From: Sulfurimonas gotlandica GD1
Lineage (GTDB): Bacteria > Campylobacterota > Campylobacteria > Campylobacterales > Sulfurimonadaceae
Assembly: GCF_000242915.1 (NCBI RefSeq)
Contig: NZ_AFRZ01000001.1
Span: 2,294,001-2,358,000, forward strand
Direction of reading: 5' to 3'
Length of the DNA stretch: 64,000 nucleotides
Below, one piece after another: positions 53,280 through 56,067 of this stretch. The notes beneath the pieces were generated by a model that ran no database searches, had not been told where the DNA came from, and saw nothing but the letters and a program-made list of their open reading frames with translations. The position numbers and the translations under genes were made by a program. Numbering within the stretch: position 1 is the first letter of the stretch; each line of letters opens with the position of its first letter.

Positions 53280-54485
53280 ATGAATGAATATATACAACTA
53301 TTAAAATCAGAACCGATTCTTAGAAGATTATCAACAATACAGCTTATCGCATATTTTGGTGCCTGGTTTAGCAATGTAGCCATATATACGTTACTTTTAG
53401 ACCTAAATGTGTCAGCTTCAGTTGTTGCATTTGTAGCAATGTTACATTTTTTAGCTGGAGTGATTCAGGCACCTTTTTCAGGTTCTATTATTGACAGTGT
53501 TCGACCGAAAAAACTTTTATTAATTCTTATCAGTGCAGAAATATTTGCAACTTTTTTCTTAATTTTTGTAAATTCTACATCAGATTTATTGCTTTTATAT
53601 CTACTTATTTTTGTAAAAATGGCAGCGGCAAGTTTTTATTTTACAACTGAGATGTCACTGCTTCCTAAAATCTTGCATGGCGATAAACTTCAAAAAGCGA
53701 ATGAACTTCACTCTATTATATGGTCTTTTTCATATACCCTTGGAATGGCAATCAGTGGCTTTGTTGTCTATTGGTTTGGGGTGAAAGTTGCATTTATCTT
53801 AGATGCCTTAATGTTTGTAGTTGGATTTATTCTACTTTACAATCTAGATATAAAAGTAGAAATTATCAAAACAGGTGAAAATCTACTGCAGATGATGAGA
53901 GACACTTTTAGATATATGAAAAAGACTCCTCAAGCTTTGCATCTAATGTTAATACATGCTTTTGTCGGTTTAACGGCTTTTGATGCATTAGTCGCGTTGA
54001 TGGTTGACAAGTACTATGCATCTGTTATCGCAACTTCTTTAGCTCTTGGACTTTTGCATGCATCTCGTGCCGTAGGTTTGGTTATTGGACCTATAGTTAT
54101 AAGTAATTGGGTAAATAATAGACGAATTGTTTATATTTTTATTGCCCAGGCATTGGCAGTTTGGTTTTGGGCTTTTATGATGAAAGATTTTTATCTCTCA
54201 CTCTTTGCAAGTGTGATTGTCGGTCTATTTACCACAACGCTTTGGTCTTATACATATACACTGCTTCAAAAAAATATTGAAGAAAAATATTATGGACGAA
54301 TAGTTGCATACAACGATATGCTTTTTCTAAGTTCAGCGGCTTTTACTTCATTTATGATAGGTTTTTTAGCAACTACAGGTTTCTCTTTAGAGTTTATTAC
54401 AGTTGTCATAGGAATAGGTTTCATCATTGGTGGAATTTATTTTTCCTGGATTTTAAAAACTCAAAACATTAAGGACATAAAATGA
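53280..54485 (+). CDS. MFS transporter
   Basis: A 401-residue protein with about twelve hydrophobic segments, typical of the major facilitator superfamily. The loop after the second helix reads S-G-S-I-I-D-S-V-R-P-K-K-L-L, matching the family G-x-x-x-D-x-x-x-x-K/R-K motif. It resembles the 12-helix drug or metabolite exporters with MFS_1/MFS_3 folds. The substrate is unknown. It overlaps the following small gene by 4 bases. A weak TATGATAAT lies just upstream of the ATG. Confidence 0.85.
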   Translation: MNEYIQLLKSEPILRRLSTIQLIAYFGAWFSNVAIYTLLLDLNVSASVVAFVAMLHFLAGVIQAPFSGSIIDSVRPKKLLLILISAEIFATFFLIFVNSTSDLLLLYLLIFVKMAAASFYFTTEMSLLPKILHGDKLQKANELHSIIWSFSYTLGMAISGFVVYWFGVKVAFILDALMFVVGFILLYNLDIKVEIIKTGENLLQMMRDTFRYMKKTPQALHLMLIHAFVGLTAFDALVALMVDKYYASVIATSLALGLLHASRAVGLVIGPIVISNWVNNRRIVYIFIAQALAVWFWAFMMKDFYLSLFASVIVGLFTTTLWSYTYTLLQKNIEEKYYGRIVAYNDMLFLSSAAFTSFMIGFLATTGFSLEFITVVIGIGFIIGGIYFSWILKTQNIKDIK

Positions 54486-54754
54486 TATATAAATCAAAGA
54501 TTGGAGATATTGATTTAGCTAAGTTAACTAGACTTTATCCTGCTGCAGTTGTAGAGATGCAAGGTGAAGTGGCTGAGATGAGCTTAGAGTGGATAGAGAT
54601 GAATGAAGATAAAGTAAATCTAAAAGAGTATATTTTAGTTTTTGATTTTACTCCGCTAAAAGAAGAAGTCAAAGATAAAAAAGTTCTTCATTTTGAGACA
54701 AAAGATGAGCTTATTCAGACAATGACAGAGGTAGCACAATTTTTTCAAGATTAG
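54482..54754 (+). CDS. Small hypothetical protein between two transporters
   Basis: A 90-residue, acidic, soluble-looking protein (M-I-Y-K-S-K-I-G-D-I-D-L-A-K-L and following) with no recognised domain. It overlaps the MFS gene by 4 bases. Its last 16 bases overlap the inferred start of the MATE gene, so ribosomes finishing here could re-initiate on the MATE frame. A T6 run close to its end is where a -1 slip would enter the MATE frame. Confidence 0.7.
   Translation: MIYKSKIGDIDLAKLTRLYPAAVVEMQGEVAEMSLEWIEMNEDKVNLKEYILVFDFTPLKEEVKDKKVLHFETKDELIQTMTEVAQFFQD
54727..54741 (+). promoter_or_regulatory. Ribosome-binding site and AUU start codon for the MATE gene
   Basis: AGAGGT (54727-54732) stands 6 bases before an in-frame ATT (54739-54741), inside the end of the preceding gene. 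The MATE reading frame is closed by a TGA at 54706, and between that stop and the ATG at 54841 there is no ATG, GTG or TTG. ATT is therefore the only recognisable start that includes the first membrane helix. Confidence 0.6.
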
Positions 54755-56067
54755 TCTCAAACGATACAAGAAGAGTCTTTAAACTTGCAATTCCTGCAGC
54801 ATTAAAACATCTAGTAGATATCTTACAAATTCTTATTGATATGCTTATGGTCGGTATGGTTAGCGTATCTGCACTTGCAGCCGTTGGTATGAGTATGCAG
54901 TTTATGATGGTCATAAATGTTTTAATGACACTATACGTTGTTGGAGGTAATGCTCTAATCTCCAGATTTATTGGTCAAGGCAGAAAAAGACGTGCTTCTG
55001 CTTTGCTTTATGGATTAGGTGTTTTTGCCATTATCCTGTCAATTTTTGTAACATTTGGCGGTTATTTTGGAAGTGAGTATATTTACGCTCTTATGGGTGC
55101 TTCTGATGATGTAATAGCTCAAGGGTCAATGTATTTTAAAATACTTTCTCTTGGTATTGTAGTTATATTTATTGATAATCTTTTATACAATGCTTTATCT
55201 GCTGCGGGAGATACAAAAAGTTCACTCTATATAAAGCTTGCATCTGCAGCAATAAACGCTTTTTTAAACTATGTTTTAATCTTTGGTCATTATGGATTTG
55301 AGGCATATGGGATAGAAGGAGCGGCTTATGCCACTGTTATAGCTTATTGTTTCAATGTAGTAGCATATTATATGCTCATAAAAAAATCAAAGTCTAAGTT
55401 GAATATCATTCCGATAATCCGTAAAAAAGACATTATTAGAGTTTGGAATGTTGGCTGGAGTGCAGCACTTGATCGTGGCATCTCAAGTCTTTCGTTTTTA
55501 GTTTTTGTATCTATAATAACAGCTTATGGTACAGCCGAGCTTGCAGGCTATCAAGTAGGACTACGTATAGAGGGCATAGCATTTATGCCTGGATTTGGTT
55601 TTGCTATAGCAGCTATGGCTTTAGTAGGTCAAAATTTAGGGGCAAATAATAAAGATAGAGCTTATAATATGGGTATTATCAGTGGAAGAATTGCCTATAT
55701 ATTTATGGGAAGTGTGGGCGTTATATTGATTGTTATTCCAGAGATTTTAGTCTCTTTTTTCACACAAGATACAGCAACTATAGAGGTAGCATCTTATTAC
55801 CTTATTTTGGTTGGATTAGCTCAAATTCCTCTAGCTATTATGTTTGTATATTCTGGAGCTTTAAGAGGAGCAGGGGCAACTAAAACCACTCTCTTAGTCA
55901 ATGTTTTATCTTTATGGTTTTTGAGAGTTGTCCCGTCATATATAGCTTATAAAATGGGCTATGGGATTATTGTAATATTTGTAATTATGAATGTAGAAAC
56001 ATTGCTTAAGGGCTTGATATATTGGTATATATATCAAAAAAGAGAGTGGTTAAACACAAAAGTTTAA
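54739..56067 (+). CDS. MATE-family Na+/H+-coupled efflux transporter
   Basis: MATE proteins export drugs or metabolites in exchange for Na+ or H+. About twelve hydrophobic helices are visible, with P-A-A-L-K-H-L-V-D-I-L-Q, Y-N-A-L-S-A-A-G-D-T-K and V-Y-S-G-A-L-R-G-A-G matching the two internal halves. From the first ATG (54841) the protein has 408 residues and lacks most of helix 1. The frame is open upstream to encode R-R-V-F-K-L-A-I-P-A-A-L-K, and reading from ATT at 54739 gives 442 residues, the normal size. I annotate the ATT start; a -1 frameshift from the preceding gene is the alternative. Confidence 0.8.
   Translation: MFSRLVSNDTRRVFKLAIPAALKHLVDILQILIDMLMVGMVSVSALAAVGMSMQFMMVINVLMTLYVVGGNALISRFIGQGRKRRASALLYGLGVFAIILSIFVTFGGYFGSEYIYALMGASDDVIAQGSMYFKILSLGIVVIFIDNLLYNALSAAGDTKSSLYIKLASAAINAFLNYVLIFGHYGFEAYGIEGAAYATVIAYCFNVVAYYMLIKKSKSKLNIIPIIRKKDIIRVWNVGWSAALDRGISSLSFLVFVSIITAYGTAELAGYQVGLRIEGIAFMPGFGFAIAAMALVGQNLGANNKDRAYNMGIISGRIAYIFMGSVGVILIVIPEILVSFFTQDTATIEVASYYLILVGLAQIPLAIMFVYSGALRGAGATKTTLLVNVLSLWFLRVVPSYIAYKMGYGIIVIFVIMNVETLLKGLIYWYIYQKREWLNTKV

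Follow-up and report, generated by a model that had tools for sequence, protein, structure and literature searches.

Where does translation of a MATE efflux transporter gene begin when its reading frame offers no standard start codon ahead of the first transmembrane helix? Natural AUU starts are documented for few bacterial genes, and automatic annotation generally ignores them. The question is raised by a locus in a 64,000-nucleotide stretch (the window) of a single-contig 2.95-Mb Sulfurimonas chromosome. A first-pass annotation of the window had noted that the MATE frame holds no ATG, GTG or TTG from the in-frame TGA at 54706 to the ATG at 54841. It had offered two ways around this: initiation at an ATT at 54739, with AGAGGT exactly 6 nt upstream and 442 residues to the stop, or a -1 slip at a run of six T residues (T6) fusing the frame to a preceding 90-codon gene. 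These coordinates, that gene included, were rechecked and are correct. Here, we describe a comparative analysis of the locus across the genus, which favors, with a probability of about 0.92, translation of a 442-aa MATE protein from the AUU at 54739, the unusual start being probably owed to the phase of the overlap with the upstream gene.

The locus and its missing start codon

The MATE gene belongs to a chain of three overlapping genes, MFS-ORF90-MATE (Table 1), in which the MFS TGA overlaps the ORF90 ATG (ATGA at 54482-54485) and the last codons of ORF90 contain both the Shine-Dalgarno sequence (SD) and the AUU of the MATE gene. A homologue of ORF90 lies directly upstream of MATE in most Sulfurimonas loci (tblastn) and is adjacent in the outgroup too; searches of Pfam and NCBIfam gave no family match for ORF90, which is a conserved protein nonetheless. 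The MATE protein matches the profiles PF01554 (E=1.4e-50, 171.5 bits against a cut-off of 24.9) and TIGR00797 matE (275.8 bits against a cut-off of 147.4), and its helix 1 aligns with that of Aq128 (PDB 6fv6) from residue 11 of 442. The same genome encodes another MATE protein, a distant paralogue with 27% identity, at C1:2892068-2893327.

Table 1. Features of the MATE locus, in window coordinates.
Feature	Position	Strand	Remarks
MFS transporter gene	53280..54485	+	First of three overlapping genes; ORF list; Pfam MFS_1 E=7.6e-31
Uncharacterised 90-aa gene (ORF90)	54482..54754	+	Stop TAG 54752-54754; ORF list
In-frame TGA, upstream bound of MATE frame	54706..54708	+	
Shine-Dalgarno AGAGGT, core GAGGT 54728-54732	54727..54732	+	6 nt (AGCACA) 5' of ATT
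Proposed AUU initiation codon of MATE gene	54739..54741	+	ATT/ATA conservation; retention after ORF90 loss
MATE efflux transporter CDS, 442 aa from ATT	54739..56067	+	Stop 56065-56067; PF01554, TIGR00797
T6 run, candidate slip site, judged non-functional	54740..54745	+	Not conserved
First in-frame ATG of MATE	54841..54843	+	Internal Met within transmembrane helix 1, not start

Homologous loci (184) were collected by protein search of genus and GTDB genomes and clustered at 97% to 111 distinct loci, 106 from the ingroup and 5 from the outgroup (~61% identity). Among the 105 scorable ingroup loci, 89 have no ATG, GTG or TTG between the last in-frame stop and a conserved D-T-(K/R)-(K/R)-V motif, and 71 of those 89 have no standard start anywhere before the ATG equivalent to 54841. 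Some 10-30 codons free of standard starts are not unusual alone; the absence is judged real because it recurs in 89 loci with conserved N-terminal coding sequence. In five loci (L080, L084, L026, L027, L088) an ATG overlaps the stop of ORF90 and could serve as an alternative start, and a few further loci have a GTG, TTG or ATG nearby. One apparent exception, L173, carries NN in its N-terminal codons, an assembly gap. Two other loci have unrelated upstream genes and still no standard start: L092 has an ATT without a clear SD, and the start of L070 is uncertain, possibly an ATC after GGAGA.

A sequencing or assembly error, or decay of MATE into a pseudogene, is vanishingly improbable as the source of the missing start: genus-wide recurrence means that it is not a single-record error, ~100 independently assembled species-level genomes (single-contig ones included) share the arrangement with no error apparent, and the frame is open to its end.

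Coding constraint and the conserved ATT

The ATG at 54841 is the first standard start of this frame in the window and the expected choice of automatic annotation; initiation there would give 408 aa, with the part upstream untranslated or decayed. The 28 codons that precede it (-28 to -1) have a pN of 0.119, a pS of 0.703 and a dN/dS of 0.062 over 103 sequences, and segments of the MATE body have similar dN/dS values (0.068, 0.176 and 0.063). MATE-frame codons -44 to -37, which lie upstream of the ATT inside ORF90, have a dN/dS of 1.6, the sort of value that an untranslated frame would give. Purifying selection is thus strong on the codons between the overlap and 54841 and absent upstream of the ATT. 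In alignments the 28 codons also correspond to the N-terminal end of helix 1 in solved MATE proteins, bearing out the first-pass view of this stretch as the conserved beginning of that helix; a 408-aa product would lack the initial portion of the helix 1 segment that aligns with Aq128. The contrast in dN/dS, taken with the helix 1 alignment, indicates that translation begins well before 54841 and after codons -44 to -37, which makes a start at 54841 very improbable. One locus narrows the interval: in L056 an in-frame TAA stands immediately 5' of the ATT, so that translation there must begin at or after the ATT codon. In the window, 54739 is the only AUU, AUA or AUC codon from the ATT position to the conserved D-T motif.

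The start region itself is conserved, with GAGGT placed 6 nt before the proposed start, a functional spacing. Of the 97 loci in which the SD can be recognised, 80 have ATT and 13 have ATA at 6 nt downstream of it, 93 together; in only 13 of these 93 does another ATT or ATA follow directly. None of the relatives has an ATG at the SD-spaced codon; an ATG there is what the first-pass annotation had named as pointing to an error in the record. The four exceptions at the SD-spaced codon are L013 (CTT), L052 and L088 (ACT) and L082 (GTG, in a replaced leader); L013 and L052 have an ATT one codon downstream instead, and L181 has an ATT at the standard spacing. Among the overlapping loci, L088 (=L177) alone has lost the SD as well as the ATT; it has instead an ATG start overlapping the TGA of ORF90 (ATGA), which we read as a natural compensatory switch. 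AUA replaces AUU at the same position in part of the genus (L048, L051, L054, L058-L060, L063/L014, L064, L069/L019, L076, L094/L016, L011 and L151), and goes with Tyr for Phe in ORF90.

Since the SD and ATT lie within ORF90, their conservation was compared with codon usage elsewhere in that gene. The Glu codon of the SD is GAG in 79/79 loci with Glu, against 453 GAG and 368 GAA (453/821, 55%, GAG) for Glu elsewhere in ORF90, and the codon that contributes the first base of ATT has A in third position in 84/85 loci, against 533/654 (81%) for Lys and 117/161 (73%) for Gln elsewhere; the 79/79 and 84/85 counts ignore shared ancestry. The SD is conserved beyond the need of ORF90 coding. Part of the ATT conservation is due to ORF90 coding, as a Phe or Tyr codon follows an A-ending Lys or Gln codon.

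The genus infC gene served as a control. It has a TTG start in all 18 genus loci read (L131, from the same genome at C1:1518378, and L198-L215), overlapping the end of a thrS-like gene upstream, and its SD is GAGGT at 6 nt in 17 of the 18 and GGGGT in one. The identical spacing indicates that the genus uses GAGGT at 6 nt. With no AUU or AUA at any of these starts, infC was rejected as a further AUU gene of the genus. A putative RNA structure over the MATE start was also rejected: folds of this region in the window, and of the L112 and L002 leaders, were not significantly better than those of shuffled sequences.

Frameshifting and loci without ORF90

Alternatively, an ORF90-MATE fusion would arise if a programmed or spontaneous -1 frameshift, or transcriptional slippage, took place where ORF90 ends. 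The -1 phase and the T6 run of the window fit such a fusion, and 82 of 89 overlaps could permit -1 re-pairing of a single tRNA under a loose rule. In the other 7, however, it is inconceivable even so, T6 is present in only 48/89 overlaps, and a canonical slippery heptamer (X XXY YYZ) occurs in 1/89. The overlaps thus hold neither a conserved slippery site nor a conserved long homopolymer; in the ATA clade the ORF90 frame reads GCA AAA TAC TTA and the T run is gone. ORF90 is also conserved as a gene in its own right, with a stop codon of its own.

Loci in which the upstream gene has changed bear on this most directly. ORF90 is gone from L004, L112 and L113, which have a divergently oriented alanine-dehydrogenase-like gene upstream (named from its sequence alone), and L002 has a different small gene upstream that ends before the SD without overlap. 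All four retain AGGT or AAGGT followed by ...ACAATT, even though L004 and L112 differ at 93 of 163 four-fold sites (~57%). Neither L112 nor L002 has any frame that both carries a standard start codon and spans the ATT, whatever the phase, and a frameshift would therefore lack a donor; in L113 and L004 there is only a GTG 8 nt upstream. Only L112 and L002 were counted as free of a donor frame. L034 and L075 were left out of this count: they lack the full ORF90, short start-bearing frames cross their ATT, and the L034 frame resembles the ORF90 tail. On the + strand of the L112 intergenic region no sigma-70-like promoter match to the E. coli consensus was found, a result that says little either way.

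With T6 unconserved, heptamers virtually absent and the donor frame missing from two loci that keep SD and ATT, the slip suggested in the first-pass annotation is very improbable, and its other suggestion, the AUU start, is the one that the conserved ATT/ATA and SD favor, both being kept after ORF90 loss. The T6 frameshift, the start at 54841, and sequencing error or pseudogene are all rejected on comparative evidence.

For the AUU start, the 30S subunit would bind the GAGGU SD inside the last ORF90 codons, and fMet-tRNA would pair with AUU, or with AUA in those members of the genus that have it. Initiation would occur de novo or through coupling to ORF90 termination, at a stop codon 13 nt downstream.

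Overlap phase, selection and known AUU starts

The MATE frame is -1 relative to ORF90, and any NTG start there gives TGN (Cys, Trp or stop) in ORF90. The ORF90 codon at the start site is TTT/TTC, TTA/CTN or TAC/TAT (Phe, Leu or Tyr). Standard starts are barred from the SD-spaced position because NTG would force TGN into ORF90, and only the near-cognate AUU and AUA would fit the SD distance in a -1 overlap with ORF90 Phe, Tyr or Leu. The sole free place for an ATG in this overlap is the TGA stop (xxA TGA), as in the five loci with an ATG there. The overlap phase is thus the likely reason that a standard start is absent, and suggests a general rule, that in a -1 overlap an NTG start is possible only where the upstream gene has a Cys, Trp or TGA codon. 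Outgroup loci L097, L099, L101 and L103 have the other overlap phase, with a TTG within or beside the ORF90 end. The deepest ingroup rows (L180 and L030) of a quickly built tree, several forks of which are unresolved, already have ATT, so that the phase change and the AUU probably go back to the common ancestor of the genus.

A competing explanation accepts the AUU as start and differs on cause only: selection for expression that is low or responsive to IF3, not the overlap, may be what maintains the codon. In its favor, AUU was kept after ORF90 loss in L112, L113, L004 and L002, despite the divergence between L004 and L112. A one-step TAA-to-TGA change would make an ATG possible in 22 loci (A before TAA) and is seen in only 5, and AUU/AUA starts lower and tune expression in S. 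aureus (PMC13009471). Against it, leader replacement in other lineages brought ATG (L086, L025/L178, L028, L169) or GTG (L082), the overlap phase alone explains the exclusion of standard starts in most species, and infC of the genus uses TTG, so that no AUU-based IF3 loop is known here. Selection on expression as the cause is therefore possible, if on balance unlikely. Doubtful, too, is a scenario combining both causes, in which an ancestral Sulfurimonas indel changed the overlap phase and trapped MATE at AUU/AUA throughout the history of the genus, and in which the weak start later evolved into a tuned, IF3-sensitive throttle on the pump, persisting without ORF90.

If the AUU is the start, annotation would be expected to drop the first 34 residues of MATE, half of helix 1, genus-wide. 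The ~100 natural variants of the locus (ATT, ATA, shifted ATT, ATGA, TTG and ATG, with or without the upstream gene) could be used to gauge how overlap phase limits the choice of start codon. No earlier report of an AUU start in Sulfurimonas was found in the open-access literature, though one may still exist.

The family and the helix 1 boundary are shared with Aq128 and the TIGR00797 MATEs, and only the start codon is unusual here. The E. coli genes infC and pcnB are cited as having AUU starts (PMC1780047, PMC13009471); as there, AUU would be the natural start of a chromosomal gene, but MATE is a transporter rather than a translation or RNA-processing gene, and its start would be nested in the upstream gene. 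In S. aureus, the starts of cvfC1 (AUU), ccpN (AUA) and infC (AUA) were shown by Ribo-Ret and reporters, and reporter expression from Staphylococcus AUU/AUA starts is below that from AUG (PMC13009471). By analogy, the rate of MATE translation is likely reduced at its AUU. Like these staphylococcal genes, MATE has an AUU/AUA codon conserved within a genus together with a conserved SD; the staphylococcal SD is extended (PMC13009471), whereas that of MATE is a 5-nt GAGGU core nested in the coding sequence of another gene. The AUU start of Borrelia burgdorferi pncA (BBE22) was likewise missed by annotation, leaving the protein ~24 residues short; that case rests on biochemistry and structure in a single species, and the present one on comparison over ~100 species (PMC13398362). 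Streptomyces sigR has a GTC start repressed by IF3 (PMC5472188); MATE would share with it a non-canonical start at a functional gene, but the codons differ and IF3 regulation was shown for sigR. By sequence criteria, the MATE locus would be a new, genus-wide addition to the AUU/AUA-started genes, and it differs from those documented in being nested in another gene and traceable over ~100 species.
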